Shown here in pieces: positions 1 to 21,247 of a stretch of DNA of 35,891 nucleotides. The DNA is from Eubacteriales Family XIII. Incertae Sedis bacterium. GTDB lineage: Bacteria > Bacillota > Clostridia > Peptostreptococcales > Anaerovoracaceae. The stretch lies in the NCBI GenBank assembly GCA_031290135.1, contig JAITOE010000146.1:1-35891 (forward strand), written 5' to 3'. A program made the position numbers and the translations under genes. Below the pieces are notes generated by a model, which worked only from the letters and a program-made list of their open reading frames with translations, was not told where the DNA came from and ran no database searches. Positions within the stretch are counted from its first letter, which is position 1; the number at the start of each line of letters is the position of its first letter.

Positions 1-1
1 C

Positions 2-454
2 CGGGATCAGGATGCGCAGGGGGCGTTCTCCCTCCGGCAGGGGGTTTTTCCCGCTTGCGGCGGACAGCACCACTTCGTAGTCCGTCAGGTATTCCTCCCG
101 CAGCACCACGCGGTATTCGTCTTTCGCGATGAAGCGGATGCGGTTGAAATCCGCCGCTGTTTTGCCGTATTCCGCCAAAAACGTGTTCAGCAGCGGTCCG
201 TAGGCTGCCACCGTGCCCGCTTTCGCCGTGGCGCCCGTCGCCGAGCGCCTGACACATTCCAGCGCCAGCAGTTCCTCCGGCGTCACTGTGAATTCTTCGT
301 CCAAAAGCCCGGATATCGCAATGGCTTCCGTCCCATACTCTGAAATGTCCGCCTGTCCGCCGCAGGCCGTTGCGCAAAAAAACAGCGTCAGGGCCGCGCA
401 CAGGGCAAAAACCCGCCGTGTACGCGCCCGCGCGCTTTTACTCTTCCGTTCCAT
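2..454 (-). CDS. Putative lipoprotein with SUOX-like domain (C-terminus runs off window)
   Basis: Manual minus-strand translation from ATG at 454: MERKSKSARARTRRVFALCAALTLFFCATACGGQ... with lipobox-like ATAC|G, then LLDEEFTVTPEELLALECVRRS...YGPLLNTFLAEYGK...PLRILIP. Not in ORF track because it is open at the window edge; starts overlapping the stop of the DUF2149-like gene. Confidence 0.7.
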   Translation of the reverse strand, partial: MERKSKSARARTRRVFALCAALTLFFCATACGGQADISEYGTEAIAISGLLDEEFTVTPEELLALECVRRSATGATAKAGTVAAYGPLLNTFLAEYGKTAADFNRIRFIAKDEYRVVLREEYLTDYEVVLSAASGKNPLPEGERPLRILIP

Positions 455-767
455 CATTCCTCACCATATAAAGCTTGCCCGTGTCGGGATCGCGGTAGAC
501 GCTGCCCATCCGTTCGTAGCGCGTGTCGCCGTCCGCGTCCTCCGTGACGGCATCCTGGACGCTTTCCACTTCTGTCACGTCGCCGCCCTGTTCAACGGAT
601 GCCAGCCGGTTTTCCTCCAGATCCACGTTCCAATAGATTACGAGCGATAGCATCAGTCCGCAGGCGAAGACCAGCATGGCGTCCACGATGTTGACTGCCC
701 CGTCCATGGGATTGATGTCGTCGTCCAACAGGCTTTTGCCCCTGCGAAGCCCGCCCCCCCTCAGCAT
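438..767 (-). CDS. DUF2149-like single-TM membrane protein (ExbD-like position)
   Basis: Start MLRGGGLRRGKSLLDDDINPMDGAVNIVDAMLVFACGLMLSLVIYWNVD; NPMDGAVNIVDAMLVFACG-type motif; start overlaps stop of the ExbB-like gene. Confidence 0.75.
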   Translation of the reverse strand: MLRGGGLRRGKSLLDDDINPMDGAVNIVDAMLVFACGLMLSLVIYWNVDLEENRLASVEQGGDVTEVESVQDAVTEDADGDTRYERMGSVYRDPDTGKLYMVRNDGTEE

Positions 768-1411
768 GGCTGCCGCCTTTCCTCCGGGAAGTATTCTTCC
801 AGCATGGCTTCCAGCACGGTCTCCATCGTGACGAGCCCGTCTTCGTACCATCTTTTGCGGATCCGCGAGATCACGAACGCCACGCCTGCCGCCGCCAAAC
901 CGGCGACGGTTGCGTCAAAGGCGGTAAGCAGGGAATCTGAAAGGGTTTTCGTGTCTCCCTGTCCCAGGGCGATCAGGCCGGGTCCAAGGGGGATCAGGGT
1001 CGCCATCAGGCCGAACAGGGGGCCGATGCGGGAAATGACGTCTGTCACGGTCACGATCTTCTGGCAGCGCCCCTCTTCTACGGCAAGCAGCCGGACTGCC
1101 AAGGAGTGGGCTGTATTTTGGGTGCAGCCTTTGTTTTCAAGGATTTCGGCGAAGGCTTTTTTTTGCGCGGCGGGAAAGGCGGTGTTCTGCAGGACGGCGC
1201 GTGTTTCTGCGGGGGCTTGCCCTTTCAGCCCCTTTACGATGCCCTTGACGTCCACCCGGCCGCGCCGCACGCGCAGGATGGCTTCCGCTGCAAGGCTTCC
1301 GAGTTCGACTGCCACGATCGCCACGAAGAGGATCAGGACGATGATGGCTGGGACTTCCAGCCCGGCGGATATCCAATGGATCGCGCTTTTTACTGATGCG
1401 GTTGCTAGCAT
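761..1411 (-). CDS. MotA/TolQ/ExbB proton-channel family protein
   Basis: MLATASVKSAIHWISAGLEVPAIIVLILFVAIVAVELGS...VTDVISRIGPLFGLMATLIPLGPGLIALGQGDTKTLSDSLLTAFDATVAGLAAAGVAFVISRIRKRWY; GPLFGLMATLIPLGPGL and the late TM pair are typical of TolQ/ExbB. Confidence 0.88.
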   Translation of the reverse strand: MLATASVKSAIHWISAGLEVPAIIVLILFVAIVAVELGSLAAEAILRVRRGRVDVKGIVKGLKGQAPAETRAVLQNTAFPAAQKKAFAEILENKGCTQNTAHSLAVRLLAVEEGRCQKIVTVTDVISRIGPLFGLMATLIPLGPGLIALGQGDTKTLSDSLLTAFDATVAGLAAAGVAFVISRIRKRWYEDGLVTMETVLEAMLEEYFPEERRQPC

Positions 1412-1684: not shown

Positions 1685-2869
1685 TCACTCCGTGCGCTGT
1701 CTTCTGTACTGTCCGATGGCGCCGGCAAAAAATAGCAACAGAAAAGCGAACGCTATGTATTTCAGCATTCCTCTGTCTGCTTCCGACGGCACGAGGGGCG
1801 CCGCGTTTTCTGCGATTTCGTGGATCCGCCAGGGCTGTTTCGCGCCTGCGTCCGCGTCGGCCGACGAAAGAGCTATCTCCGCGAAAGCGGGCGCTTCCGG
1901 CGCGTCCGTTTCTTCTCCCGTGTTCCCGGTCTGTTCCGCCAGGGCGCCTGCGGCTCCGCCCTCCGGCGCGCCCGGCGCGTCCGCCGCCGTCGGATCTCCG
2001 CCGCCCATTTCGCTCCCCAGCGGCACGTCCGCGTCTATGGCAGCCCCCTCGTCCGGCGGTGCGCCGCCCAGCAGGATCTCTATGGCGTGTATCCACTTCG
2101 CCGAGCGGTACGCTTCCTGCGAAAAACCGTCCGTCTGCCCGAACACCAAGCGAAACCGGTTGTCCGTCACCATCCCGTCGAAGTTCGGCGCGTCCGCGAA
2201 GCGTTCCCAGCGATCCATCACGGCGATCATGGTCTGGACCGGAACGGGATCTTCCATGGCGCCGAGCATCGGCGCCATCAGATCCAAGTTCCATAGCTCC
2301 GCGAGGTGCGGATAATAGTAGCGTTTCCTCTCCAGCAGGTAACTGCCGGGGTAGCTTTGGTACCAAGTCCCTTCAATGTCCTTGCAGTAGAGGTACAGCG
2401 TCTCTATCGAGCCGAGGTCGATGCCGGCGTCCGTCAGGATGTCCGAAAGCAGGGCGCCGCGCGCGGAGTTGACCACCACGGCCGGCATCCGGTCGATCCA
2501 CGTGTACACCTGCTGCACCTGCGGCAGTTTCAGGAACTCGTCCATGGTATAGACTTTTCTGATTTCGTAGTCCGAGCCGAAATAGCCCACCTTGATGGTC
2601 AGGCTGTCCGAGCGGAGTCCGTCGGCGCCCGTCCCCCGGCTTGTGTCGTCCGTCAGGTCGGCTTCCACCGCAGCGGGGCTTGTCACCTCCGCGATTTCGG
2701 TTGCGCCGGGGCTTACCGCGTCCGGCAGGACATCGGCTTCCGGTGCGCCGAGGCTTGCCGCGTCCGCCGGCTCGCCGGTTTCCGCTGCCAGGGCCGGACA
2801 AGGCAATGCCGCCCACGCGAAAAGGATGGCCGCCGTACAGATGGCCGGAATCAGAAAGGCTTTCCTCAA
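1685..2869 (-). CDS. Secreted SUOX-like domain protein with C-terminal TM anchor
   Basis: Signal peptide; VGYFGSDYEIRKVYTMDEFLKLPQVQQVYTWIDRMPAVVVNSARGALLSDILTDAGIDL...RLVFGQTDGF...AKWIHAIEILLGG; acidic Ala/Pro-rich linker; terminal KYIAFAFLLLFFAGAIGQYRRQRTE. Apparent TTG start overlaps upstream stop. Confidence 0.75.
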   Translation of the reverse strand: MRKAFLIPAICTAAILFAWAALPCPALAAETGEPADAASLGAPEADVLPDAVSPGATEIAEVTSPAAVEADLTDDTSRGTGADGLRSDSLTIKVGYFGSDYEIRKVYTMDEFLKLPQVQQVYTWIDRMPAVVVNSARGALLSDILTDAGIDLGSIETLYLYCKDIEGTWYQSYPGSYLLERKRYYYPHLAELWNLDLMAPMLGAMEDPVPVQTMIAVMDRWERFADAPNFDGMVTDNRFRLVFGQTDGFSQEAYRSAKWIHAIEILLGGAPPDEGAAIDADVPLGSEMGGGDPTAADAPGAPEGGAAGALAEQTGNTGEETDAPEAPAFAEIALSSADADAGAKQPWRIHEIAENAAPLVPSEADRGMLKYIAFAFLLLFFAGAIGQYRRQRTE

Positions 2870-4248
2870 ATTTCGACCCCCGCGTTTCTAAAGGTACGCA
2901 GGATGGCGACCGCGGCTTGTGCCTTCGTCGCCACGTCCAAGGGGTGGAAGCTTCCGTCCGGGAAGCCCGTCACGCCGCCGTTCTCCGTCAGGGCCGCCAC
3001 CGCGTCCCGCGCCCAGGACGCGATTTCCGCCCTGTCCGTATAGCTGAGCTGCGAGCCGTCGCCCGTCAGTTCAAGCGCGCGGGCGAGCATGCTGGTCATC
3101 TCCTGCCGCGTAATCAGCCTGTCCGGGTTCACTTCGCCTTTTTCCCCCGGAACCAGGATGCCCTGCCTGATGGCGGTGGACAGATAGGGCTGCCCCCAAT
3201 GGCTCTGCGCGTCGGAAATCCGCACGGAACCGTCTAAGCTGCACAGGCGCTTCACGATCATGGCCTTCGTCAGCATGCTTACGAACTGCGTGCGCGTTAC
3301 CTGGCTGTTCGGCGCAAAGCTGCCATCCGGGTTTCCGTTCACCGCGCCCAAGGCGACCAAGGTCGCGATGTCCGGCTCCGCCCAGTGGCCTTTCACGTCG
3401 GTCAGGGCGTGATCCGTCGTCATTCCGCCCGCGACGCCGCCCGTGACGACGTCCGATCCCTGCCCGCTGCCGGTGTCTACGGGGTCGGTGTCGTTCGTTC
3501 CGCTTGTGCTGCCGCTGCTTCCGCTGCCCGTGCTTGTGGCCGGCGCGTTGACCGATAGTTCCACGTCCATCCTGTAGACCCATTTAAAGGAATTCGACGC
3601 GTTCGCCGGGACAAAGGTCCCGTCTTCCCGATCCGAGAAATCTTCCATGCCGAACACCACGCGCATGCGGTTGGCACCCGTGAGGGGTTCCGGCTCACTT
3701 CCGGTCCGGTACCAGCCGTCCTCGTAGGCGAGCATCGGGTATACCCGGCGCTTTCCCTCGGAGGCCGCCGCGACGTTCAGGATGTTGATGCCCATGCCTG
3801 CCGGTTCCCACAGGGCTTTGTCCAGAATGGCAGGGAAGATGTAGCCGTCGTAGCCCAGCAGCTGCTCCCGTGAAAAGCTCTTCTGTCCGTCCGACGCCCA
3901 GAACGTGAAGCGTTCGATGTCGTTTTCCTTCAAGCCCACGTCCCGCAGGACTGTGGTCAGGTACACGCCTGTCGCTTCGTCGAAGGTCACGGTGGGGAGC
4001 AGATCCACGAAGGTGAAATACTGGGTCACGCCCTTGTCTTCGAAATAGCCGATGTCAAGGTCTCGCAGGACTTCAAACTCGTTCTTGTCCGCGTACCGGA
4101 TGCGGACTTCCAAGCTGGATGCCGCTGTGCCGGTTAAGGTCTTGTCCGGGTATTCGGTGGGGGGCGGCATGGCCGCGCAGAGGGTGGTGAACAGGACCGC
4201 AAGGGTCAGGGCCAAAAGGCATGTGCGCCGCAAGGTTTTTGTTTTCAT
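2866..4248 (-). CDS. SLH-domain surface protein with N-terminal SUOX-like domain
   Basis: MKTKTLRRTCLLALTLAVLFTTLCAAM signal; SUOX-like region (TGVYLTTVLRDVGLKENDIERFTFWASDGQKSFSREQLL...RMRVVFGMEDFSD...FKWVYRMDVEL); three C-terminal SLH repeats (VKGHWAEPDIATLVALGAVNGNPDGSFAPNSQVTRTQF...). RBS GGAGG before ATG 4248. Confidence 0.85.
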   Translation of the reverse strand: MKTKTLRRTCLLALTLAVLFTTLCAAMPPPTEYPDKTLTGTAASSLEVRIRYADKNEFEVLRDLDIGYFEDKGVTQYFTFVDLLPTVTFDEATGVYLTTVLRDVGLKENDIERFTFWASDGQKSFSREQLLGYDGYIFPAILDKALWEPAGMGINILNVAAASEGKRRVYPMLAYEDGWYRTGSEPEPLTGANRMRVVFGMEDFSDREDGTFVPANASNSFKWVYRMDVELSVNAPATSTGSGSSGSTSGTNDTDPVDTGSGQGSDVVTGGVAGGMTTDHALTDVKGHWAEPDIATLVALGAVNGNPDGSFAPNSQVTRTQFVSMLTKAMIVKRLCSLDGSVRISDAQSHWGQPYLSTAIRQGILVPGEKGEVNPDRLITRQEMTSMLARALELTGDGSQLSYTDRAEIASWARDAVAALTENGGVTGFPDGSFHPLDVATKAQAAVAILRTFRNAGVEI

Positions 4249-4407
4249 TGCAATTCCTCCCGTTTGTGAATTTTGGTTACGCATCCGCCGCTACGGGTTG
4301 CGCCCGCCCCGCAGCTGGGTGTTTCGTGCCATAAATATATAATAACAGGGGGGGAGGCAGAGAGAAGAAAGAAAACCTCCCCCCGGATGATGAAAGCAAG
4401 CGTTATA

Positions 4408-4484: not shown

Positions 4485-7280
4485 TTAGGTGCGCATTATC
4501 CGTTCCAGCATCCCGGCGATCATCTTGGCGGCTTCTGCCCGCGTGGCGTTGTCCGACGGCGCGAAGCGGAAAGTTCCGTCATTGTTTTCGATGCCGTTCA
4601 GGATTTCTGACTGCTGCATCGCCCATACGGCGTCCTGGGCCCAGGGCGCGATCTCCGCCGCGTCCGAGAAACGCACGGCCGCCCCGCCCGCAGGCAGTTC
4701 CGCCTGCGCCACCCGGCTGATGTAGCGGGTCAGCATGGCCGCCGCCTCCTGGCGCGTCAGCAGGTCATTGGGGCGGAAAAGACCGTCCGCGCCCTCCGCC
4801 ACGCCCGCGCCAGCCGCCCACAGGACCGCGTAGTAATACCACTGGCCTTCCTGCACGTCCGCGAACGCGTCCCCGAGGTTGTCCCGCAGCGCCTCGTCCG
4901 TCATGTTGTACAGGATCCGCGCCAGCTCCGCCCGCGTGATGTTGGACAGGGGTTCGAACACACCCGTTTCTTTACCGTTCACAAGATTTCTGTCTGTTAA
5001 AAATTTCACAGGCTCGTAATACCAGGCGTCTTCCGCCACGTCCGTGAAGAGCGCGCTCAGGTTGTCGCGGCCCGTGAGCACAAAGGTCGAGAAATCGGAG
5101 GTTGTGAAGCTGAGGCGTCCTGTTTTCGCGTCGTATTCCGTTTGCAGGAATTCCACTTCGCCGTCTTCTGTCAGGTGTGCCGCCACGACCAGGGACGGGT
5201 CTTCCCCCTCCGCCGGAGCATAGTCCAGAATGACGGTCATGATTCCGCCCTTGAGGGTCTCTATCGTCACCCCGGCCTCGACCGCGCCGATGTAGGCGTC
5301 CAGCGTGACCGAGGTTCCCAAGGCACCCATGTCCTTGAGTTTTTTCGCCAGCGCCGCCTGCTGCGCTTCGTTCAGGACGGACGCGTCCCCCACCGAGGTT
5401 TTCAGCCGGACTGTCTTTCCCGCCTTGTACAGCACACGGACCGCCGCGTTGTCAAACTCCAGCGTCAGGTTCAGGTTTTCCGGATCCTCCGTCTTTCTTA
5501 CCTGCAGGCTCGTCGCCGAGGAAAGCTTTGACGTGTCCACGGCCGCCATGCCGTTTTCGTCGAATTCGGCGCGGACGCGGGTCGGCGTCGCTTGCGGGAC
5601 GGCGATGTTTCCGCCGCTCGTTCCCGTGGTCCCCGTGCTGTTATTGCTGTTGTTATTGCCGTTGTTATTGCTGTTGTCATTGTTGTCTGCGGCGTCATCC
5701 GGGTCTTCGGCGCCGGGCGGAGGGGTCTCCGGGTCGCCGGCGTAGAGGATGACCCGCGCGTCCATGTATCCCGCCGCGCTGATGTCCAGCGTATAGGTTC
5801 CGGCGGCGTCGAACAGGGTTCCGGCGAGGTAAATGCTCCGGTCAAAGGCGTCAATCCAGTAGTCCTGCCTTTCCTGTATGTCACGCCTGTTGGCAGGCAG
5901 CACCTGCCCGAAGTACAGTTTGGTTTGGGTGATGGCGGAGGTCCATTCCTCAAAGAATTTCGCGGATTCCGTGTCGGACAGCGCCATGGCGGGCGTCAGG
6001 TGTACGGGTTCATTTATGGGAATGAGTTTGGGGGCGCCGAAATCCGGGGCCTCCGGCAGGGCGTGGAGCGTGACCGTGCCGCGGTCCGCAAAGCCCGGCT
6101 GCGCCGCGTGGGCGTATACCGTCAGGGGCTTCGCCTCCCAATCCCGATCCGCTTCCTCCGGCACGAAATGGATTGTCCCCGTGTACGGGGTCTGCGCCGT
6201 GTCGTCGTCTTCAAGGGAATAATAGATGGATGCGCCGGTGGTGACGTTTTCCAGCGTGACGTCGGCGCTGCCGTCTCCGTTATACACGAAAGACGCGACG
6301 GGCGATTCCACCGTCCCGAAGCAGGGGAAATCCGGCGCGTTTGCCATGTCTAAGCGCATGCCGTAGATCCACTTGAAATTGTGGTACATGGTACGGGTAC
6401 CCCAAAACAGCACCGCCTTTGTTTGCGGGACGCAGAGCGCCAGGGCTTCCGCGCCGGACAGCGTGCTTGCGAAAGCGCCCGTGGGATCATCGCCGTTCGC
6501 GGCCAGCCAGCTGTTGAGGGGTTCGTCGCTCCTGCGTCCGTTCATGTAGCGCGTGGCCAGCAACACCGGCATCTCGGTGCTGTTAACTTCCGCATAGCGT
6601 TTGTCCGCATAATATGGATCGTCGATCCCGTAGCTGTCATTGTATATTTCAAAAGACAGGGGCGGCCAGACGCTGTAGCCCGGAGTCTCCCACCCTTCGT
6701 GCCATCCGCCTGCGGCGTAGGCCGCAGCGGGCGGTTTGAATATGGGCGGTTTGAGTGTCTCAGGGGCATAATAGCCAGGTTCTCCAAGCAGATCTTCGTA
6801 AGTCCAAGCGCGCACGAACGCGGTGGGCGTGTCCGTTGCCATCAGGTGGAGGGTTCCTCCCGGCGAAAAAGCGATGCCACCCGTCGTCGTAATTTCCGGG
6901 TTGTGTTCCCCGGCATATTCTTTTACAAAGTCTATCAGTTCCCAGATCTCGAAGCCCTGTGCTTCCGCGTACACGATATCGGGTAAGTTGTCTGAGGCGT
7001 TGAAATAATAATTTTTTCCCTCGCGCCCCGGACGGGTGTCCCCATGGGTGAGCGTGTCCAGCTCCGCCGCGGGGATGGCCGCCAGCAGCACGTCCGCCCC
7101 TTCCGCGTTCTTCGCGTAAAAGAAAAGGGTTTCCAGCGGTTCCGAATCCAAAGTTTTGTCCACTGCCCGGACGTCTCCGTCTGACAGGGCGGGATAAATC
7201 CCGAACATCAGGAGGGCCGCCAGCAGGACGCAGACAGCGCGCTTTGCCGCCGCCCTGCTTCTTGTCACGTTCGTTGCCAT
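4485..7280 (-). CDS. Large SLH-domain surface protein with SUOX-like and chitobiase-like beta-sandwich domains
   Basis: Start MATNVTRSRAAAKRAVCVLLAALLMFGIYPAL with AAGGAG RBS; LETLFFYAKNAEGADVLLAAIP...LPDIVYAEAQGFEIWELIDFVKEYAG; ASIYYSLEDDDTAQTPYTGTI; Asn-rich linker; three SLH repeats at C-terminus. Confidence 0.85.
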   Translation of the reverse strand: MATNVTRSRAAAKRAVCVLLAALLMFGIYPALSDGDVRAVDKTLDSEPLETLFFYAKNAEGADVLLAAIPAAELDTLTHGDTRPGREGKNYYFNASDNLPDIVYAEAQGFEIWELIDFVKEYAGEHNPEITTTGGIAFSPGGTLHLMATDTPTAFVRAWTYEDLLGEPGYYAPETLKPPIFKPPAAAYAAGGWHEGWETPGYSVWPPLSFEIYNDSYGIDDPYYADKRYAEVNSTEMPVLLATRYMNGRRSDEPLNSWLAANGDDPTGAFASTLSGAEALALCVPQTKAVLFWGTRTMYHNFKWIYGMRLDMANAPDFPCFGTVESPVASFVYNGDGSADVTLENVTTGASIYYSLEDDDTAQTPYTGTIHFVPEEADRDWEAKPLTVYAHAAQPGFADRGTVTLHALPEAPDFGAPKLIPINEPVHLTPAMALSDTESAKFFEEWTSAITQTKLYFGQVLPANRRDIQERQDYWIDAFDRSIYLAGTLFDAAGTYTLDISAAGYMDARVILYAGDPETPPPGAEDPDDAADNNDNSNNNGNNNSNNSTGTTGTSGGNIAVPQATPTRVRAEFDENGMAAVDTSKLSSATSLQVRKTEDPENLNLTLEFDNAAVRVLYKAGKTVRLKTSVGDASVLNEAQQAALAKKLKDMGALGTSVTLDAYIGAVEAGVTIETLKGGIMTVILDYAPAEGEDPSLVVAAHLTEDGEVEFLQTEYDAKTGRLSFTTSDFSTFVLTGRDNLSALFTDVAEDAWYYEPVKFLTDRNLVNGKETGVFEPLSNITRAELARILYNMTDEALRDNLGDAFADVQEGQWYYYAVLWAAGAGVAEGADGLFRPNDLLTRQEAAAMLTRYISRVAQAELPAGGAAVRFSDAAEIAPWAQDAVWAMQQSEILNGIENNDGTFRFAPSDNATRAEAAKMIAGMLERIMRT

Positions 7281-7314
7281 GCTTGCACGTCTCCTTCCTT
7301 TGCGTTTTACGCGC

Positions 7315-8655
7315 CTAAGACGCGCTTCCGGAAACGAAGTAATGAACCACAGCGAGCATCTTCGCCGCTTCGGCGCGGGTGGCTTCGCCCTGGGGGCGGA
7401 AGCTGCCGTCCTCGTAGCCGCCAATGACGTCCGCCTTCTGCATGGAAACCACCGCGTCTTTTGCGTAGCCGCTGATCCCGGTCGCGTCCGTGAACGTTAT
7501 CTCCGCATTGGTTTCGTCAAGCGTGATGTTTTTATAGTTCAGGTAGCGGGCCAGCAAGGTCGCGATGTCCTGCCGCGTAATGCGGTTCCCCGGCGCGAAG
7601 CTCTGTTCGGAAACTCCGCTCGTGACGCCTGCGGCCACTGCCCAGGCCACTGCGGGCGCGTAATAGGCGCTTTCCGGCACGTCGGCGAACACGGAGGCTG
7701 GCTCTGCGGAAGCGCCGTCCATGCGGTACAGGATGGTGATGAACTCCGCCCGGGTGATGGAATCCGAGGGCGCGAAAAGACTTGTGCTCTTGCCGGTCAC
7801 GAAGCCGTAACCCGCCATGTAGCTCACGTAGTCATAGGCCCAGTGTCCCTTTGGCACGTCCGTGAAATCCGAAGCCGCCAAGGGCGCGTTCCCGTCGAGG
7901 ATGTTGACGGCGGAGAGTCCGTTCGCGGCACCGGATGTGGTGCTTGGCGTGGCGGCAGGCGTAGTGGTTGTGGCGGCGGGCGCCGTGGCGCTTGGCGTGG
8001 AACCGCCGGACGTGGCGCCGCCTCCGGACGGGGTGCTGCCGGGCGTTGTGACGTCAGGCGTTGTGGTGCCGGGCGTGGTGCTGTCCGGCGTAGTGCTGTC
8101 CGGCGTTGTGCTCTCCGGCGTGGTGGTGGCGGGGGGCGTTGTGCCGGAATCCGCCGCTTTCACGGTGATTTTTCCGGGGCTGAACGTGACAGGCACGACG
8201 TCCGCGTTCCAATTCATAAGGTTTTTGTCAAGACCGTCCACCAGGCCGATCCGGATTTCATAGTCGCCGGCCGCCGCGCCGGATTTCACGGAAAACACGG
8301 CGGTAAACAGCGTTCCGTTTTCTTTTATGTCCGTAACCCCGAAAAACGCGACATTATTCCTGTCGGGGTTTTTGATCAAGCCACCCTCCGGAAAAAGCCC
8401 GCCCGTGAAGCCGGTCAGCGTCAGGGCGGCCGTGTCGTAGGTGAACACAAAGGCGGCCCCGGCTATGCCGGGGTTGTTTTCGATCCGGACGGGGATTTGC
8501 AGCCCCGTTGCTCCCGGCGCCGCTTCGCTTATGCTCCCTGCCTGCACCGCGGTTCCCGCCGCAAGGGCCGACGCCGGCGCGAGGCCGAAGAGGGTCAGGC
8601 AGAGACAGAGGGCGGCTACGATTATTTTCAAATGTTTGTCTTCTCTCTTTTTCAT
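7315..8655 (-). CDS. Cohesin-domain protein with Thr/Pro linker and three SLH repeats (cell-surface anchoring scaffoldin-like)
   Basis: Cohesin-like IPVRIENNPGIAGAAFVFTYDTAALTLTGFTGG...GTLFTAVFSVKSGAAAGDYEIRIGLVDGLDKN; TTPPATTTPESTTPDSTTPDS linker; SLH repeats FTDVPKGHWAYDYVSYMAGYGFVTGKSTSLFAPSDSITRAEF.... Confidence 0.88.
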   Translation of the reverse strand: MKKREDKHLKIIVAALCLCLTLFGLAPASALAAGTAVQAGSISEAAPGATGLQIPVRIENNPGIAGAAFVFTYDTAALTLTGFTGGLFPEGGLIKNPDRNNVAFFGVTDIKENGTLFTAVFSVKSGAAAGDYEIRIGLVDGLDKNLMNWNADVVPVTFSPGKITVKAADSGTTPPATTTPESTTPDSTTPDSTTPGTTTPDVTTPGSTPSGGGATSGGSTPSATAPAATTTTPAATPSTTSGAANGLSAVNILDGNAPLAASDFTDVPKGHWAYDYVSYMAGYGFVTGKSTSLFAPSDSITRAEFITILYRMDGASAEPASVFADVPESAYYAPAVAWAVAAGVTSGVSEQSFAPGNRITRQDIATLLARYLNYKNITLDETNAEITFTDATGISGYAKDAVVSMQKADVIGGYEDGSFRPQGEATRAEAAKMLAVVHYFVSGSAS

Positions 8656-8879
8656 TTTCTTCTCTCTTTCTTCTTCTTTTTTTCTTCTCTTTTTTTCTTT
8701 CTTCTCTTTTTTCCTTCTTCTTTGTTTATGCCGGATCTTACGGCGCGGAGCCAAACCCCGCGCCGCAGTCCGGGTCTATCCTGCAATGGGCAAGATTGCA
8801 TGCATGTGTTGGGTGGTGCTTATGTTACGCCCCGTCTTTGCGATGAAAGACGGAGGGGGCGGCTGACGTGTCCCCCCGT

Positions 8880-10483: not shown

Positions 10484-10506
10484 AAACATTCCTCGCATAT
10501 CTCTGT

Positions 10507-12694: not shown

Positions 12695-12794
12695 TGTTTC
12701 TTTCTTCCTTTCTGAGTTGTAATAAGTGTGGGTTGTAATAAGTAATAAGAGTAACAATAAGTAAGGCGATTTGGAATGGAGCTTGTATCTGCAC

Positions 12795-12960
12795 GTCATT
12801 GCGGAGGCGGACAAGGGCGAGTAAGGCAATGACGGGAGTACCATATCCGCCAATATCCGTTGCGCTTCCGTCAAGATCATCGGCGTATGTCCAGTGTAGT
12901 GTCCTACGTTATGCACTGGGTTGCTTCGTCGCTTCACTCCTCGCAATGACGGGGCAAGGA
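12795..12960. repeat. Dispersed repeat remnants (small hairpin plus half-element)
   Basis: GTCATTGC...GCAATGAC at 12795-12833 and GGGTTGCTTCGTCGCTTCACTCCTCGCAATGACGGGG near 12920-12956. Confidence 0.65.
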
Positions 12961-12970
12961 CGGGAGTGCC

Positions 12971-15355
12971 TTACAGACCGATCGCGCGTCGGGCTGTCAG
13001 TATGACGTCCCGCATGGTAATGACGCCGTCTCCGTCCAGGTCCGCCAAGATCCGCTGGGTTTCCGTCAAGGACACGAGGTCGGCTATCGCCCGCGCGATT
13101 TGGATCGCGTCGCTCGTCGCGACTACGCCGTCTCCGTTCACATCCCCGAGGATCAGCGCCGCGCCCGCCGCCGTCAGCGAGAGGCCAACCCCTGACACGT
13201 TGGGACGGGCTGCCGCATCCGCATCGGTCACGATGGCCGTTTCCTTGCGCAGGTCAAGTTCACCCGCGCGCAGGGGCATCAGCTTGACCGTCCCCACCGC
13301 CAGCGTGGCTTCTGCAGCCGTGCCTGTTGTCACGTCCGCCGCGAGGGTAAGCCAGGTGAGGGTGGTTCTCCCATCCTGGGTGACGCTGCCACATTCCCAG
13401 CCGGAGGCCGCCGTGAGGCCCGTAAAGCCGAAATCTGCCGCCGCGAAAGATACGCTGTACTGCCCGCCGTACAGCCGGAACGCCCCGGATTCCGAGGTGA
13501 GGCTTGCCGCCACGTCCACTACTTCGCCCACGGCGGCCTCGCTCTTCGCCGCGAGCAGGCTATAGTTGAAAACGCCGTCTTCGTTTTCGCCCAGTACGCG
13601 GAAAGTGAATTCCAAGCTAACTGGATCGTAGTTGCTGTTGATCGCTGTCAGAATGTAGTTCCCCGGCTCCTTGATGACACAGTTTGAAGCGCCGTAGTAG
13701 GACGCTCGGATGATGAGTCTGCCGGACTCCGCGCCGAAATGCGTACCTGAGATGGTGGAGGCTGCCCCTTCCGCCCCTTCTTTTTTGATGTACAGCATAT
13801 AAACCCCTGCGGCGTAGGCGCTATCGGAGAAAGTGAGGCTGATGGCTTGGTTCATCCGCGCCGATGCGGAAACCAAGTCCACCCCCGTTCTCTGCATGCC
13901 GAATGTAATGCTTTTATTCGCGTAACCCGCCGCGCTGACCGTGAGGGTATAAGAACCCGTCGCGCTGAACAGGGATTTGTCCAAGGTCAACGTCTTCGCC
14001 GCCGTGTCCACGCGGTACTCCGTTTCCGCCGTCAAGATCTGCGTGTTGGCGTTCGGGTAGCGCAGGCGCAGTTCGCTGATGTTCTCCGCCCAGTCCGCGA
14101 AGGCCGCCGCGTCCGTGCCGGCTGCGGCCGAAAGCACCACGTCGCTGCCGACCAGCCCCGCAAAGATGGCGTCGAACGCGGGCGCGGTTCCCGGATAGGA
14201 GCAGGAGACGATGCCCGCGTCGGTATAGCCTTCTTTCACGGCGCGCATGTAGAGCTTCACCGGGCTGGCGGCCAGATCCCGGCCCGCCGCGATGTTATAG
14301 GATATGGGCGTACCCGTGTATTTCGTCACCGGCGCGTCCTCTAAATCAAAGGAATAGTAGATGTCCGCGCCCGGCGTGTCGCAGTCAAGCGTCACCGACA
14401 GCGTGTCAGCCTCCCGCGTGAACGCGGCGGTAGGCGCCGTCACCGCGCCCAGAGGGGTGATTTGCGGCGCGTTTTCCATCGCCAGCTTCATCAGGTAGAT
14501 CCAGCCGGTGTAGTGGTACATGGTGCGGTTGCCGGAGTAGTACGCGTCTGGGGTCTGGGGCAGACACAGTTTCAGCGCGTAGCCGTCAAAGGCTCCGGAT
14601 TTCGTGACGCCGAGCCCTCCCGTGGGATCGCCCGCATGGCTGTTCAGCCAATTTGTCATTTCGCCGCGCCGAATGCCTTCCGAATACACGGCCAAGATAG
14701 CGGGCATGGCGGTTTTGCCCTGCGCCGCCGCCGCTTTCGCGGCATAGGTCGGGTCGGTGGATAAGTGATTTTCCTCATAAGTTGAGAGAGGCATGGCCGG
14801 CCACGACGTCGGGCTGTAGCCGCTCCCCGTGATCTCCCAGCTGAGATCCCAGCCGGTTGTCGGGTGCAGGAGGCCGGGATAGTAGTAGCCCTGTTCTCCA
14901 TACAGGTCATCATAGGTCAAGGAATCGCGGTAGATGCCGTGTCCGTCCGTGGCGCCCATGTACAGCCTGTCTGCGCCTGAAAAGTTGATGCCGGACGCGA
15001 CGGACGAGTTCGTTTTCACGTAATTGACCAGTTCGTCCGCCGTGAAGCCTATGGCTTCCGTGTACACCGCAATCGGGAGGTTGTCCGTGGCGCTGTAATA
15101 GTAGTTTGTCCCGGTGTCCGGATTGCCGTGGGCAAGGGCGTCCAGTTCGCTGAAAGGCAGGGCTTTCAGCAGCACTTCTTCGCCGTTGCTGTTTTCCGTG
15201 TAGAAGAACAGGGTTTCGGCTTTGGGGGATTCGGTGGTCTTCGCCTGGGCCGGGGTGCTTCCCGGAAGCAGGGGCGAGAGGCCAATGAGGAGCAGCGCCG
15301 TCAATATCAGGCTCAGCAGTCTCCCCGGTAGGGTCTTTATCCGCATGGTGTTCAT
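12971..15355 (-). CDS. Dockerin protein with SUOX-like, chitobiase-like and cohesin-like domains
   Basis: Start MNTMRIKTLPGRLLSLILTALLLIGLSPLLPGSTPAQA; SKAETLFFYTENSNGEEVLLKALPFSELDALAHGN...LPIAVYTEAIGFTADELVNYVK; GADIYYSFDLEDAPVTKYTGT; dockerin GDVNGDGVVATSDAIQIARAIADLVSLTETQRILADLDGDGVITMRDVILTARRAIGL. The track's extra N-terminus is translation of a tandem repeat. Confidence 0.85.
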   Translation of the reverse strand: MNTMRIKTLPGRLLSLILTALLLIGLSPLLPGSTPAQAKTTESPKAETLFFYTENSNGEEVLLKALPFSELDALAHGNPDTGTNYYYSATDNLPIAVYTEAIGFTADELVNYVKTNSSVASGINFSGADRLYMGATDGHGIYRDSLTYDDLYGEQGYYYPGLLHPTTGWDLSWEITGSGYSPTSWPAMPLSTYEENHLSTDPTYAAKAAAAQGKTAMPAILAVYSEGIRRGEMTNWLNSHAGDPTGGLGVTKSGAFDGYALKLCLPQTPDAYYSGNRTMYHYTGWIYLMKLAMENAPQITPLGAVTAPTAAFTREADTLSVTLDCDTPGADIYYSFDLEDAPVTKYTGTPISYNIAAGRDLAASPVKLYMRAVKEGYTDAGIVSCSYPGTAPAFDAIFAGLVGSDVVLSAAAGTDAAAFADWAENISELRLRYPNANTQILTAETEYRVDTAAKTLTLDKSLFSATGSYTLTVSAAGYANKSITFGMQRTGVDLVSASARMNQAISLTFSDSAYAAGVYMLYIKKEGAEGAASTISGTHFGAESGRLIIRASYYGASNCVIKEPGNYILTAINSNYDPVSLEFTFRVLGENEDGVFNYSLLAAKSEAAVGEVVDVAASLTSESGAFRLYGGQYSVSFAAADFGFTGLTAASGWECGSVTQDGRTTLTWLTLAADVTTGTAAEATLAVGTVKLMPLRAGELDLRKETAIVTDADAAARPNVSGVGLSLTAAGAALILGDVNGDGVVATSDAIQIARAIADLVSLTETQRILADLDGDGVITMRDVILTARRAIGL

Positions 15356-15413
15356 TTTTTTCTCCTGTTTGTGTTGTACTGGTGTATGTCCGGCGCAGTC
15401 CACGTTATGCGCT

Positions 15414-15691
15414 GGGTTGCTTCGTCGCTTCGCTCCTCGCAATGACGGGGGTGCTTCGCTCCTCGCAATGACGGGGGTGCTTCGCTCCTCGCAATGACGG
15501 GGGTGCTTCGCTCCTCGCAATGACGGGGGTGCTTCGCTCCTCGCAATGACGGGTGCTTCGCGCCTCGCAATGACGGGTGCTTCGCTCCTCGCAATGACGG
15601 GGGTGCTTCGCTCCTCGCAATGACGGGTGCTTCGCGCCTCGCAATGACGGGGGTGCTTCGCTCCTCGCAATGACGGGGGTGCTTCGCTCCT
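15414..15691. repeat. Tandem array of a 24/26-bp unit (GCTTCGCTCCTCGCAATGACGGGGGT), about 10 copies
   Basis: TCGCAATGAC recurs about every 24-26 bp; 24-bp units lack two G, two units have CGCCTCGC instead of CTCCTCGC. Confidence 0.9.
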
Positions 15692-15733
15692 CCGGGTTCG
15701 CCCGCCCCGCAGCTGGTGATCTACTCCATCCAA

Positions 15734-18700
15734 TCAGCTGGCTTCCTGCAGGGCGCGGCGGATTAGCTGGGCGTCGCGGACGTCTATTGTTCCGTCGCCG
15801 TTCATGTCGTAGGCGGCATTGTAGGCGCCGCCGCGCAGGACGGCGTTTTTCACTGCGGTCACGTCCGTCTCGTCTGTCCTGCCGTCGCCGTTCACGTCCG
15901 TGCGGTCGGGTTCTTCCGCGCCCGTGCGGCTCTGCATGGTGAAGCTGTCCAACAGCATCCCGTCCCTGTCGTAGGTGCGCAGGGACAGGGTGTTCCCCCG
16001 GACGTCCACGATCTGGTAATTTTCAACGCCGAACAGGAGTTTGTCGGAATAGGTTCCGTCCGCCGAATAATAGAATTTCTTTCCGGAGTTGCCCATGACC
16101 CAGGTGATGCCGTTTTCGTGATCCATGACGCCGTTTGTCAGCGGGTGCGTCCTGGAGTACACGTGCTGATGCCCGACCAAGGCCAGATCCACGCCGCCCG
16201 CCTCGAAGAGGGGCAGCCAGTATTGCCGCACGGCCGCGGACACCTTGTCCGTCACATGGGGGTATGCCGGGTGGTGCAGGGATATGATCCGGAACTTCGC
16301 GTCTTTGGCCGCCGCGAGGTCCGCTTCTATCCAGGCGGTGATCCGGTCCATCCGGGCCTGGTCGATCACCGCGCCCGCGCTGTTCAGGATCTTTTGTTCG
16401 TCGGACAGGGTCCAGCTGTTCAGGACGGTGAAATGCGCGTCCCCGTAGTCGAAGCTGTAGAACTCTTCCTTGAATTCCTCCGGTCCGTTCTGCGCCAGGT
16501 TGAAGTTGTCTAAGAAGAGGGGCGCCTTGCCGCTCCCGTCCGGGGCGTTGCTTTCATGGTTGCCGATGACGGGCGCGAGGGGGATCTTGTCGAAGATGCT
16601 CTGGGCGTAGGCGATCAGCCATTCCCATTCGGACAGGCTCTGGCCGTTCTCCACGGCGTCCCCGCCCTGGATGCCGAAAGCGATCTCCGGGTTTTCTTCG
16701 TAGGCTTTTTCCAGGAGGCTGCCCCAGAGGGGGTATTCCGTCTCCGGCACAGCGGGGTTGATGTCGCCCACGTAGAGGAAGCTGAATCCGCCCATGATGT
16801 CCGGTTCTGTGGTGAAGCTGCTGGCTTCGCTCCAGGCGTCCCCGCCGCCCACGCGGTAGCGGTAGGACGTTCCGGGGCTAAGCCCCGTCACCTTCGCTTC
16901 GTAATGGATCCGGCCGCCGAGGGTCTTGGCCGCGGCCGCAACGGATGCCGCCCCCGCGAAGGAGGCATCGCCGCTGTAGGCGGTCTCCGGCAGGTACTGC
17001 ACCTGTTGTGTGCCGTCGGCTCCGCCCGCAGGCAGGGACCAGACGACGCCGATTTCTGTCTTGGGGTCTCCCGTCAGGCTGAGGACGATGCCGCGGGGCT
17101 TGTCCGTGTTGATCAAGTCCCTGTCCAGGCGGAAGGCAATGGCTTCCTGATCCGTCAGCCTAAACGTGAGCGTCTGGGGCAGCCAGCCCTCTGCGGCCGC
17201 CGTGGCGGTGTAGATTTCTCCAAGCATCAGCGCATAGGTGCCGTCCCCGGAGGGCGTCTGTGCCGTATCGAAGGCGTTGCGCAGGGTCAGCTGCGCTTCC
17301 GCCGGTTCTGCGGTGACGCGCAGGTCTTTCCGCTGCCAGTGCAGCGCGGGGTACGCCCCCTCGTTTTTGACAAAATATCCGTCCGTTGTGCCGTTTCCGG
17401 CGCTGTTCCAGTTTTTCAGCGCCGTCTGTCCCAAGGCTTCATTGCCGAAGAACCAGGACTGCCAGTGCGGTTCCACGCCAGCAAGGTCTTCCGTGCTGCC
17501 GGCAAGCTCCGCCGGGCTGCCCTGTTCGCCGAGGTAATATACGCTGTCAAAGGTCTGTGTGCCGGTTTTTTCGCCGAACAGCGGATTGCCGGAATAATCA
17601 AAGCTGCGCGTGACGGCAGTGCCGCTTAGCAGGGTGCCCGCCAGGCCGAAGCTTTGCGCCGCGCTCAGCGTCCCGGCGTTATAGCTGTCCGTCAGGGAAC
17701 CGCTCAGGCTTTCCACAAGGCCGGAGGCTTTTTCGCCGCTGAGCCGCCCGAAGTTCACGCTGCCGCGCACCGCGCCCGTCTGCGCGCCCACGAGGCCCGC
17801 CGTCCGCGCCGCCGCCACATCGCCGAAGTTGGCGCTGTCCGTGACCGCGGACGCGGCGCCCGCCAGACCGTATGCGGCGCCAAGGCTCTCCCCGCCGGCC
17901 AGCGTTCCGTAGTTAAAGGAGCGTTCTATGGTGGCGTCTCCCGCCGCCACAAGGCCCGCCGCCAGGCTGCGGCTCGTGATGTCCGCGTAGTTGGCGCTGT
18001 CCGTGATCTGCGTCCCGTGTGCCTCCCCGGCGATTCCACCGACGGAACCGTTTTCGAAGGCTGTTTCCACCTGCACCCGGTTCACGCAGTTTTCGATGCG
18101 CCCGCCGTCGGCATAACCGACGAACACGCCCGCGTAGGCCGCGCTTGTGGCCGCGAGGGATCCGCGCAGGGTCAGGTTCTTCAGGGTGGCATCCACCGTT
18201 TTTCCGAAGAAGCCGGCGTATACGAGCACCTGCCCCGCCTTCTTTGCGGGCAGCCCGCTGACGGCGTGGCCCTGCCCGTCGAAGCTCCCGCTGAACGCCG
18301 CGCCGGAAGCGTCGGCGCTGCCAACGGTCCCGATGCCGCTCCAGGGGTGGCCGTTCAGGTGGATATCCGCCGTCAGCTTCACGGTCTTGCCCGCGAAGCT
18401 GTTGCCGCCGTTCACCAGGCTTGCCAGCCCCGCCAGTTCGGCGCCGGTTGAAATTTCATAGGCTGACGCGCCCGCGTCATACCAGGCGGTATTCGCCGCC
18501 GTGCCGTCCCAGGCGTGTTCGGCGCCCGCAGGAACCTCTTCCGCTTCGCCCAGATCCTCCGAATGGTCGCTGTTGGCCACCATGACGCCTTCATCCGTAT
18601 AGCCCTCCCGGACCGCGCGGAAATTGAAGGATACGGTTTTGTTTCCGTCTTTCCGGATTTTCACCGCTTCGCCCGCGTAGAGCGCCGTCGGCATATAGGA

Positions 18701-19660
18701 GCTGGCTGAGGCGTCGTTGTACAGGATGTCCACGCCCGGCGTCTCTTCAAAATTGAAATACCAGTACCCGGCGTCGTAGGCGTCCGTCGCGTCCGCGTCC
18801 CCGTCGATCACCGCGTAGGAGGGCATCCCCACATGGCCCAAGGCCGGGAGCGCGGGCTTGTTTTTCATGTTGAACAGGATGTAGCAGATGCCGTAGCGGC
18901 TGTTGCTTGCAGTCTTCGCCTGATCTTCGAACTGCTGTGCGGTCAGCGGGAGCATCAGGCGTACAGTTCTTGCCGTATCCAACCTGCCGTCGTCGTCGAA
19001 GTAGCCCTCCATGTAGACAACTTCTTTGTTCGGAACGGTGAGGAAGTAACGCTCGGAAAAGGCCGTGACGGAAAGAACGACCGTTTCCGACCTTGCGCTG
19101 GCCCGCACCGCGTCTTTGTCCACGTAACTGCTGGTGTAATCATTCCAGTTTTGGTACATGGCGGGATAATTGTACCTCATCTCTCCATACAAATCCGTCC
19201 AGGCGTAGGTGTCCGCGGCATCATATCCGTCGTCGTCGATTTCCCAGAAAGACACCTGATCGTCATTTTCGAAGCGCAGGGGGGACGTAGAGACCGCGGG
19301 CAAGCCGGAATTCGCTTTCGCGTAGTCCAGAAACTGCTCCACGGAAAAGCCCTGCGCCTCCTGGTGTACCACCGTGGGGTACTGATCCAAGATGGAGTAA
19401 TTATGCACCCGTCCGATGCTGGCGAAATTTGCGTTTAAATAGTCCAGCATGTCTTCCACGGCCAGGCGGGTGACCAGGACGTCGTCCCCCTGCGCGTTCC
19501 GCGCGTAGATGAGGACGTTCTTTACGGAATCCCCTGCGGCCAGGCTGCCTTTCGCGCTGGCTTCCTGGGGCGCCCAGAGGAGCGACGGCGCGGCCAGCGC
19601 CAGAACCAAGAATGCCAAGAGGATGTGGCGGAGCGTTTTCTTTCCTTGTGTCATTGTCAT
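15734..19660 (-). CDS. Dockerin protein: SUOX-like N-domain, GLUG-like repeats, purple-acid-phosphatase-like N-domain and calcineurin-like metallophosphatase
   Basis: VKNVLIYARNAQGDDVLVTRLAVEDMLDYLNANFASIG...YPTVVHQEAQGFSVEQFLDYAK; repeats such as GGIAGEAHGTQITDSANYADI; metallophosphatase motifs VGDINP, GGDAVENG, GNHESN, HHPAYPH, VGHQHVYSR; C-terminal DVNGDGRTDETDVTAVK...DMNGDGTIDVRDAQLIRRAL. Confidence 0.88.
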   Translation of the reverse strand: MTMTQGKKTLRHILLAFLVLALAAPSLLWAPQEASAKGSLAAGDSVKNVLIYARNAQGDDVLVTRLAVEDMLDYLNANFASIGRVHNYSILDQYPTVVHQEAQGFSVEQFLDYAKANSGLPAVSTSPLRFENDDQVSFWEIDDDGYDAADTYAWTDLYGEMRYNYPAMYQNWNDYTSSYVDKDAVRASARSETVVLSVTAFSERYFLTVPNKEVVYMEGYFDDDGRLDTARTVRLMLPLTAQQFEDQAKTASNSRYGICYILFNMKNKPALPALGHVGMPSYAVIDGDADATDAYDAGYWYFNFEETPGVDILYNDASASSYMPTALYAGEAVKIRKDGNKTVSFNFRAVREGYTDEGVMVANSDHSEDLGEAEEVPAGAEHAWDGTAANTAWYDAGASAYEISTGAELAGLASLVNGGNSFAGKTVKLTADIHLNGHPWSGIGTVGSADASGAAFSGSFDGQGHAVSGLPAKKAGQVLVYAGFFGKTVDATLKNLTLRGSLAATSAAYAGVFVGYADGGRIENCVNRVQVETAFENGSVGGIAGEAHGTQITDSANYADITSRSLAAGLVAAGDATIERSFNYGTLAGGESLGAAYGLAGAASAVTDSANFGDVAAARTAGLVGAQTGAVRGSVNFGRLSGEKASGLVESLSGSLTDSYNAGTLSAAQSFGLAGTLLSGTAVTRSFDYSGNPLFGEKTGTQTFDSVYYLGEQGSPAELAGSTEDLAGVEPHWQSWFFGNEALGQTALKNWNSAGNGTTDGYFVKNEGAYPALHWQRKDLRVTAEPAEAQLTLRNAFDTAQTPSGDGTYALMLGEIYTATAAAEGWLPQTLTFRLTDQEAIAFRLDRDLINTDKPRGIVLSLTGDPKTEIGVVWSLPAGGADGTQQVQYLPETAYSGDASFAGAASVAAAAKTLGGRIHYEAKVTGLSPGTSYRYRVGGGDAWSEASSFTTEPDIMGGFSFLYVGDINPAVPETEYPLWGSLLEKAYEENPEIAFGIQGGDAVENGQSLSEWEWLIAYAQSIFDKIPLAPVIGNHESNAPDGSGKAPLFLDNFNLAQNGPEEFKEEFYSFDYGDAHFTVLNSWTLSDEQKILNSAGAVIDQARMDRITAWIEADLAAAKDAKFRIISLHHPAYPHVTDKVSAAVRQYWLPLFEAGGVDLALVGHQHVYSRTHPLTNGVMDHENGITWVMGNSGKKFYYSADGTYSDKLLFGVENYQIVDVRGNTLSLRTYDRDGMLLDSFTMQSRTGAEEPDRTDVNGDGRTDETDVTAVKNAVLRGGAYNAAYDMNGDGTIDVRDAQLIRRALQEAS

Positions 19661-19693
19661 AAACAGACCTCCAAAATATTGTGCGTACCGCGT

Positions 19694-21247
19694 TTACAAA
19701 GCTGCCGCGCGGGCGATCAGGATGATGTCTTTCATGGTAATCACGCCGTCGTCGTCCATGTCCGCCGCCGCTTTTTGCGCCTCCGTGAGGGTTCCCCCGG
19801 CTAAGATGCTCTGCGCCGCAAACAGCGCGTCCGCGACGGTGGCGTGGCCGGTTCCGAGCAGATCCCCGCTGCCGGGCGCGCCGGGCGTACCGGGTTCTTC
19901 GGGATCGGTGATGCCGGCCTGCCATGCCAGAATGGGATAGCCGTTGTTGACGCCGTTCTCGTCTTTCACGAAGCCGCTGCCGGTTCCGCTGAGTTCCGTG
20001 ATGAAGGCGTCGGCCTTCATCTCGCTTGCCGTCTTCTCATATATGACGTCCCGCGAGCTGGCGCTCCAGATGCCGTAGGGGGCGGAGCCTTCCAGCCAGT
20101 AGCAGTTCACGAAGCTGCCGCCGGCGTTGGTGCCCAGCGCCACTGCGAACGTGTCCCTGCCGGCGCTGACGGTGCCGACGTTGTAGCAGTTGGTCACGGA
20201 GATTTCGTTGCCTGCGGCGATGCCGCCCGTGATGAATGCGCCGCTGTTGGCGACGCTGCCCGCGTTGTAGCAGTTGTTGATCCTGCCGCCGTTCCAGGCC
20301 GCGCCCGCGATGCCGCCCGTGCCTTTGGCGTCCGTTCCGTGGATCTCCGCGAAGTTGGCGCAGTTTTCAATGATGCCGCCGACGGAGCCGTCCCCGTTGT
20401 TGTATGATGTCTTTCCGATCTTGCCCACGATGCCGCCCACGCTGCGCCGCGCGGAAATGTAGCCGTCCACGCTGAGGTTGCGCACGCTGGGGTTCACGGG
20501 GCGCATCTCTACGGGGTCGCTGTCATGTACGCCGAGGCGCCCGATGAGGCCCACGGACTGGGATTCTTTGTAGGGTTCCGGGTTGGAGCCGCTGGGGTTC
20601 ATGGAGGCGCGTTCGCAGTAGATGTTGTAGATCTTATGCCCCTGGCCGTCCAAGTTTCCGCAGAAAGAGGAACTCAGCAGGGTGCTGCTGTCATTCAGCT
20701 GCATGGAATACTGCCCGCCTATGGGCATGTAGTTCGGTCCCGCCCACACGCCGCCCGTTTCATATCCGCCCATGTCCAGATCCGCGTCGATGTAAATGGT
20801 TTTGCCGTTAAAGTCGTCTATGCCGTACCAGTAGCCGTCGCTGGCGCCGCCGACGAAGGTACCCGTCACATAGTCCGGGTTGCCCAGCAGCGGCGCGCCT
20901 TCATTATATATGCCGTTGACGATGGCCGCCACGCCCGCCAGCTGCGCCGGGGTCTGGATGTGGAAGCTCGTGGCCTCGGCGCTGTACCAGGTGACGTCCA
21001 CGGTTCCGTTCCATATGGCGTCGTTGTAGGTGTTCAGCGGAGAGATGGCGAACGGGGCTGCCGCCTCCGCCGGTTCCGTTTCTTCTATTATTATGGATTC
21101 AGTTATTATGCCTTCAGCCGCGTCGTCCGCGAAGGCGGGCGGAACCCAGGCGATGGTGGAAATCACCATGCAAAGTCCCAATAAAGCCAACATACCTGTG
21201 CGGACGCTTCTTTTCGCTGTCCATGTCATGTCTTTCCCATGTTTCAT
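19694..21247 (-). CDS. Secreted GLUG-repeat protein with (partly degenerate) dockerin
   Basis: Signal peptide; SFCGNLDGQGHKIYNIYC, VGGIVGKIGKT...GGIIENCANFAEIHG, GGIAGAAWNGGRINNCYNAGSV; C-terminal GTGHATVADALFAAQSILAGGTLTEAQKAAADMDDDGVITMKDIILIARAAAL. Confidence 0.82.
   Translation of the reverse strand: MKHGKDMTWTAKRSVRTGMLALLGLCMVISTIAWVPPAFADDAAEGIITESIIIEETEPAEAAAPFAISPLNTYNDAIWNGTVDVTWYSAEATSFHIQTPAQLAGVAAIVNGIYNEGAPLLGNPDYVTGTFVGGASDGYWYGIDDFNGKTIYIDADLDMGGYETGGVWAGPNYMPIGGQYSMQLNDSSTLLSSSFCGNLDGQGHKIYNIYCERASMNPSGSNPEPYKESQSVGLIGRLGVHDSDPVEMRPVNPSVRNLSVDGYISARRSVGGIVGKIGKTSYNNGDGSVGGIIENCANFAEIHGTDAKGTGGIAGAAWNGGRINNCYNAGSVANSGAFITGGIAAGNEISVTNCYNVGTVSAGRDTFAVALGTNAGGSFVNCYWLEGSAPYGIWSASSRDVIYEKTASEMKADAFITELSGTGSGFVKDENGVNNGYPILAWQAGITDPEEPGTPGAPGSGDLLGTGHATVADALFAAQSILAGGTLTEAQKAAADMDDDGVITMKDIILIARAAAL

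Follow-up and report, generated by a model that had tools for sequence, protein, structure and literature searches.

What would a surface assembly bind that displays proteins with a sulfite-oxidase-like (SUOX) region on cohesin, dockerin and SLH modules and is encoded beside an ExbB-type channel? The question is raised by contig JAITOE010000146.1 of a Eubacteriales Family XIII. Incertae Sedis bacterium (C193 here), one of 274 contigs in a draft genome and analysed whole as the window (35,891 bases). All genes of the block 2–21247 lie on the minus strand and run, from 21247 down to 2, in the order GLUG-dockerin protein, SUOX-GLUG-phosphoesterase-dockerin protein, SUOX-HID-dockerin protein, three-cohesin-dockerin scaffold, two cohesin-SLH anchors, SUOX-HID-SLH protein, SUOX-SLH protein, SUOX protein with a transmembrane helix, ExbB, DUF2149 and a SUOX lipoprotein that runs off the contig (Table 1). 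Our analysis indicates that the SUOX system very probably belongs to molybdenum/tungsten-cofactor metabolism. From sequence comparison we consider it somewhat probable that the surface system captures and imports the pterin cofactor of molybdenum and tungsten enzymes (molybdenum cofactor (Moco), tungsten cofactor (Tuco) or molybdopterin), a ligand suggested by riboswitch regulation and by genome co-occurrence.

The six SUOX-like modules of the window form one family, each being matched by several SUOX profiles, with searches from any of them converging; iterated searches seeded by eight modules converge on largely one set of >200 proteins. Pfam calls no SUOX domain (PF00174) in the window, and a PF00174 search of the window's own genome was also empty, so that these modules escape detection by Pfam alone. 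The small lipoprotein does have relatives (L046:10222-10731 and L044:13275-14354) that match PF00174 above the cut-off. For the module of 1685–2869 (SUOX-A), the AlphaFold2 model (pLDDT 89) retrieved with Foldseek a list whose first 23 PDB matches all belong to the sulfite-oxidase family, including YedY with tungsten cofactor (E down to 9e-5, best probability 1.00), after which the probability falls; the TM-score of ~0.43 means that the superposition is loose. Alignment of SUOX profiles with the single MsrP sequence by hhalign gave a signal too weak to use, and the A4 profile had no relevant match among solved structures. In the contig-end lipoprotein, Cys32 belongs to the lipobox, and a second, invariant Cys68 has by eye the position of the cofactor-binding Cys of the SUOX fold; this Cys is invariant in the small lipoprotein class, its equivalence to that of MsrP likewise being judged by eye. 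A Tat-like RRx[FL] motif occurs in just 8/324 SUOX proteins, which carry Sec or lipoprotein signals and would thus leave the cell without cofactor, making it unlikely that they carry cofactor out from inside. Chains in the mapped loci hold up to seven modules, and these arrays, with the rarity of the Tat motif, would fit capture or binding better than catalysis.

A scan of GTDB genomes with an ExbB alignment provided at least 80 loci, kept among the matches listed, nearly all of them from Clostridia (Family XIII bacteria, Anaerovorax, Mogibacterium, Syntrophomonas, Pelotomaculum, Desulfotomaculaceae, Thermacetogenium, Sporobacter and others). The mapped loci have the order SUOX-ExbB-DUF2149-SUOX, often behind FecCD-ABC-PBP2, and the gene that corresponds to SUOX-A is immediately upstream of exbB, a placement that is conserved. 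Relatedness of the six modules and conservation of this neighbourhood, two points on which the preliminary description could have failed, both came out in its favour. Among the matches listed, 71 of 80 loci encode SUOX, at least 56 DUF2149, 33 SLH, 39 a FecCD/PBP2 or ECF transporter, 22 HID and 20 the phosphoesterase, while DUF2149 itself was found in 28/297 genomes of the order. Many syntrophs have an ECF transporter with one S-component type (PF09819 match) in place of the FecCD importer. Cohesin and/or dockerin genes adjoin SUOX-ExbB in L105, L118 and L132; SUOX-dockerin and phosphoesterase-dockerin genes lie near ExbB in L044, the latter also in L132. The closest named architecture among the matches listed is that of Sporobacter termitidis (L124), with RF01055, phosphoesterase-SLH, SUOX-HID-SLH, SUOX-SLH, SLH, SUOX and ExbB, in which direct SLH anchoring takes the role that cohesin-dockerin pairing seems to have in the window. 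Two side observations concern this locus set. On a contig labelled Parabacteroides (L069), which is likely mis-binned, the SUOX-ExbB-DUF2149-SUOX locus is of Clostridial type and encodes, among the matches listed, the ExbB that best matches the window's. In Syntrophomonas (L075:15771-17904), an FMN-bind protein, a small SUOX protein and a NapH-like Fe-S membrane protein are encoded in a row, with similar genes in other syntroph loci; a SUOX protein in such a row is possibly used for surface electron transfer.

A clue to the ligand comes from RF01055, the molybdenum/tungsten-cofactor riboswitch, which is the sole regulatory RNA family found at these loci (one tRNA was the only other match). It directly heads the operon in L194, L196, L199, L200, L042 and L057, that is in 6/9 family or order genomes having both, against 0.096 expected in the nine (P about 2e-11, a rough guide because the 15-kb window for placement was picked after seeing the data). 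It likewise heads the operon at loci of Syntrophomonas, Desulfotomaculaceae, Sporotomaculum, Desulfoscipio, Dethiobacter, Thermacetogenium and Sporobacter, and in SUOX loci 26/28 riboswitches examined have a SUOX, phosphoesterase or ECF-S gene within the first three downstream genes. The copies in these operons are mostly of the Tuco type that lacks P3, which is absent from 9/9 aligned copies; Regulski et al. tie absence of P3 to the tungsten cofactor (PMC2408646). Those of L112 and of Sporobacter L124 appear by eye to retain P3 and would be of Moco type.

Genome content points the same way. Within the family, MoaC is encoded by 11/15 SUOX-ExbB genomes versus 1/26 others, tungsten aldehyde oxidoreductase (AOR) by 10/15 versus 1/26, and either of them by 14/15 versus 1/26 (p=6e-9 with genomes treated as unrelated), the contrast being one of ExbB-DUF2149 locus presence, with DUF2149-negative genomes unsearched for SUOX. 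The lone AOR genome among the 26 others (G022) has a riboswitch-headed SUOX-ECF operon. Three drafts, G187 (99% complete), G200 (95%) and G220 (94%), have AOR and a SUOX operon, and MoaA, MoaC and MoeA were not found in them; in G187 the sole RF01055 match of the genome heads the SUOX operon. AOR is a tungstopterin enzyme. In such genomes uptake of the oxyanion alone would give no cofactor, whereas uptake of the pterin cofactor would, and this is the main argument for import. Five further SUOX-operon genomes (G214, G282, G285, G289 and G296) have MoaA and MoaC and no MoeA match, and might hold partial pathways or a divergent MoeA.

An importer is encoded next to the block. Contig C215 of the same genome opens with CCGGAAGCGG..., whose in-frame translation is PEAESNMWEYACVRIEFVE-stop, and joining it to C193 gives a 170-residue lipoprotein ending RILIPEAESNMWEYACVRIEFVE, which matches RLLIPEAESAMWGYNIIRIEFER of L143. 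After this SUOX end, C215 encodes a Peripla_BP_2-type lipoprotein, a FecCD permease and an ATPase, so that through C215 a type II ABC importer joins the block in one operon. Binding protein and permease share 71–74% identity with those of the SUOX locus L148 and 48–62% with those of L143, a locus that preserves the full order SUOX-ExbB-DUF2149-SUOX-PBP2-...-FecCD-ABC. The nearest solved relatives of the binding protein include MolA HI_1472 (6.8e-12) and binders of iron complexes/siderophores, haem and B12, a mixture that leaves its substrate unreadable from similarity. The preliminary description, made from the letters of the block, had pointed to the left of position 1 for a CobN/HmuS-like chelatase or an ABC transporter; the transporter is there, and the chelatase is absent from the window and C215.

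The pair ExbB-DUF2149 is likely to be the energiser, as had been proposed. Alignment of 16 relatives gives DUF2149 one transmembrane segment with an invariant Asp (N-x-x-D-x-M-L-V) and an outside motif G-x-V-Y-x-D-P-x-T-G; because this Asp stands in an ExbD-like setting, we infer a proton-driven motor. Against solved structures the DUF2149 profile gave no ExbD match, its single match being a designed repeat protein that we consider spurious. The pair is common to the hmuYRSTUV loci of Bacteroidota and to CobN-ExbB-DUF2149 loci, the latter representing another subtype without SUOX (L032-L036); here, in contrast, SUOX proteins stand in, and there is no adjoining CobN/HmuS and no TonB-dependent receptor. 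Loci with ExbB-DUF2149 and without SUOX in genomes that lack MoaC, MoaA and AOR (L048, L051, L053-L056) were set aside as a separate subtype. In L048, L051, L053, L055 and L056 (G105, G115, G010, G154 and G204), ExbB(-DUF2149) accompanies PQQ-like, cadherin-like, fn3 and SLH surface proteins, so that the motor seems to serve further surface systems.

Open reading frames and Pfam bear out the one-strand block of ExbB, DUF2149, SUOX-like, cohesin+SLH, multi-cohesin+dockerin and dockerin proteins described earlier, with SLH in four window proteins and Dockerin_1 in those of 10574–12946, 12971–15733, 15734–19660 and 19694–21247. The cohesin of 8981–10498 is marginal, scoring 22.3 bits in hmmscan (cut-off 24.1) and 24.8 bits in the genome search. 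The first reading had overlooked Pur_ac_phosph_N and Metallophos domains in 15734–19660 and Shr-like_HID (PF07550) in two proteins (4485–7424 and 12971–15733). The architecture resembles a cellulosome in its cohesin-SLH anchors, multi-cohesin scaffold with dockerin and dockerin cargo, and differs in that the cargo consists of SUOX, phosphoesterase and GLUG proteins. Pfam found no glycoside hydrolase within the block, in agreement with the earlier view of a non-cellulosomal, wall-anchored assembly. The whole genome has 11 cohesin and 13 dockerin matches, and neither glycoside hydrolases nor carbohydrate-binding modules were found in the four dockerin proteins of the window or in six further ones scanned (of the 13; three others were unscanned). 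We rejected a cellulosome on this composition of the ten. A 1683-aa GLUG/dockerin protein with a C-terminal SUOX-like module on C92 (L061:5596-10647) places SUOX-dockerin cargo beyond the window as well.

In the mechanism that we propose, SUOX-fold modules, exported empty through Sec, would be displayed on the S-layer or wall (SLH), by cohesin-dockerin scaffolds and at the membrane, where they would bind cofactor set free by other cells. The dockerin-borne phosphoesterase may, speculatively, trim nucleotide or phosphate from a (dinucleotide) cofactor, and HID and GLUG modules might hold donor proteins. On its way inward the cofactor would pass to the SUOX protein anchored in the membrane and to the SUOX lipoprotein; the ExbB-DUF2149 motor, by homology, would power its release or hand-over, and the binding protein, FecCD permease and ATPase linked by the contig junction would import it. 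In relatives, cofactor-sensing riboswitches, recognised as sequence, would control the operon, while in the window cohesin-dockerin pairing would replace direct SLH anchoring of some parts. The scheme is similar to the Isd/NEAT and Shr haem relay, in which arrays of small binding modules on wall or S-layer proteins hand over to a lipoprotein and a FecCD-type importer and with which HID is common through Shr; it is unlike that relay in having the SUOX rather than the NEAT fold, a Moco/Tuco riboswitch in relatives and the added motor.

Several observations weigh against capture and import of the cofactor. RF01055 is absent from the window, where RNA families gave chance matches only, and its single match in the genome is a weak one of 25.6 bits (cut-off 36) at a different dockerin locus; that match (C184:22287-22390, L063:288-391) lacks P3 and precedes a GLUG protein and a 1709-aa GLUG/dockerin protein. 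MoaA, MoaC and MoeA are present, with about ten PF00384 matches, so that this host need not import, and the genome has no AOR. The link to C215 rests on a 4-base overlap and protein homology, and the absence of MoaA, MoaC and MoeA in the three AOR genomes on draft assemblies. The model of the module of 12971–15733 (SUOX-D, pLDDT 82) had no significant PDB match, and its fold assignment therefore rests on sequence. The larger modules lack the cofactor-binding Cys. Finally, some syntroph loci also carry FMN-bind and NapH-like proteins, reminiscent of a redox chain.

These last genes, beside SUOX in Syntrophomonas and Pelotomaculum loci, keep alive an unlikely alternative in which the modules are surface Moco/Tuco-dependent reductases or electron carriers, the riboswitch does no more than adjust apo-enzyme output to the available cofactor and ExbB/DUF2149 energises some unrelated process at the surface. 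Enzymes with the SUOX fold are known, Moco RNAs stand ahead of enzymes that use Moco (PMC2408646), and the present proteins resemble the SUOX/MsrP (YedY) family (PF00174) in fold, in the Pfam matches of close relatives and, as far as the eye can judge, in the Cys of the small lipoprotein. They differ from that family in Sec rather than Tat export, in their multi-module arrays and in the missing Cys of most modules; importers share the operon, no redox partner occurs in the window or at most loci, and AOR without MoaA, MoaC and MoeA would be left unexplained. Uptake of tungstate or molybdate (or a metallophore) by a MolABC-like importer and surface oxyanion binders, under riboswitches for the end-product cofactor, is improbable. 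It would account for the match to MolA, and Moco RNAs also control molybdate transporters (PMC2408646); the importer does share with type II MolABC a binding protein, FecCD permease and ATPase. However, the transporter is matched by siderophore, haem and B12 binding proteins too, the surface fold is a pterin-cofactor fold, an oxyanion cannot by itself supply AOR in genomes without the three pathway genes, and the system goes together with SUOX modules at the surface and, in a part of the relatives, with a missing molybdopterin pathway, not with the supply of an oxyanion.

That the block is an ordinary non-cellulosomal adhesion or glycan complex, adjoining a transport operon by chance, is very doubtful: surface proteins of GLUG/fn3/PKD type make up most of the genome's remaining dockerin proteins, but SUOX-dockerin and phosphoesterase-dockerin genes recur beside ExbB in the loci named above, and in Sporobacter termitidis the phosphoesterase-SLH and SUOX proteins lie with ExbB behind RF01055. 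Of the preliminary description's proposal that the complex handles a metallo-tetrapyrrole or other cofactor, cofactor handling stands, whereas haem, cobalamin or another tetrapyrrole is highly improbable as the ligand, for although hmu loci combine ExbB-DUF2149 with CobN (PMC10434189), HID takes its name from the haem protein Shr and the FecCD/PBP2 family imports haem and B12, CobN was found in 1/80 loci among the matches listed, never beside SUOX in mapped loci, and no cobalamin riboswitch was found at the loci.

Divergent from the block, the window encodes a Crp/FNR-type regulator and a hybrid histidine kinase (21731–24432), candidate regulators replacing the absent riboswitch; the Crp/FNR-type protein is a possible regulator of the block. 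Short interspersed repeats (VIARSEA in translation) inflate several open reading frame starts in the window; they lie at about 1450–1740, 8780–9030, 12900–12950, 15350–15700 (in part tandem), 24240–24580, 25950–26020 and 31250–31330.

Table 1 Features of the block and its divergent neighbour, with position in the window, strand and basis of assignment
Feature	Position	Strand	Basis or remark
Small SUOX-like lipoprotein, cut by contig end	2..457	-	C-terminal 18 residues at start of own-genome contig C215 (L217)
DUF2149 protein, likely ExbD-like partner	438..770	-	PF09919 1.7e-10
ExbB/TolQ/MotA-type proton channel subunit	761..1411	-	PF01618 (MotA_ExbB) 1e-8; profile matches ExbB 5sv0 and MotA
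SUOX-like module + C-terminal transmembrane helix (SUOX-A)	1685..2869	-	Profiles and fold model
SUOX-like module + 3 SLH	2866..4284	-	Pfam and SUOX profiles
SUOX-like module + Shr-like HID + 3 SLH	4485..7280	-	Open reading frame opens at 7424, likely start near 7280
Cohesin + 3 SLH anchoring protein	7315..8754	-	Pfam, cohesin 5.7e-7
Cohesin (marginal) + Pro/Thr linker + 3 SLH anchoring protein	8981..10498	-	Pfam
Scaffoldin-like protein, three cohesins + C-terminal dockerin	10574..12946	-	Pfam, Dockerin_1
SUOX-like module + HID + dockerin (SUOX-D)	12971..15733	-	Pfam Dockerin_1, SUOX profiles
SUOX-like module + GLUG-type region + purple-acid-phosphatase-like phosphoesterase + dockerin	15734..19660	-	Pfam, SUOX profiles
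GLUG-type repeat protein + dockerin	19694..21247	-	Pfam Dockerin_1
Crp/FNR-type regulator, divergent from block	21731..22561	+	PF13545 4.9e-10

The literature searched, which lacked most subscription papers, covered the riboswitch, the hmu loci and NEAT relays and contained no bacterial Moco/Tuco importer and no SUOX-ExbB-DUF2149 or SUOX/SLH system. The importer and motor parts come from known families; what would be new is that a pterin-cofactor fold forms an array on the surface and is combined with a dedicated motor and importer. We give an even chance to the fuller statement that this would be the first bacterial importer of ready-made molybdenum/tungsten cofactor, consisting of SUOX-fold scavenging arrays, a proton-driven ExbB-DUF2149 motor in presumed monoderm cells and an ABC importer, through which certain gut Clostridia would use tungsten enzymes although they make no molybdopterin, and that here it takes the form of a cohesin-dockerin surface complex. 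If so, cohesin-dockerin pairing would gain a new cargo, and ExbB motors would acquire a function in cells that presumably have no outer membrane. For Syntrophomonas wolfei, 15 or more Moco RNAs were reported in 2008 (PMC2408646); these would have a likely explanation, as several stand at the head of SUOX genes in the Syntrophomonas loci analysed. The existence of some AOR-bearing bacteria without a molybdopterin pathway would be explained, and pterin cofactor would be a further currency exchanged in anaerobic communities, beside B12 and haem.

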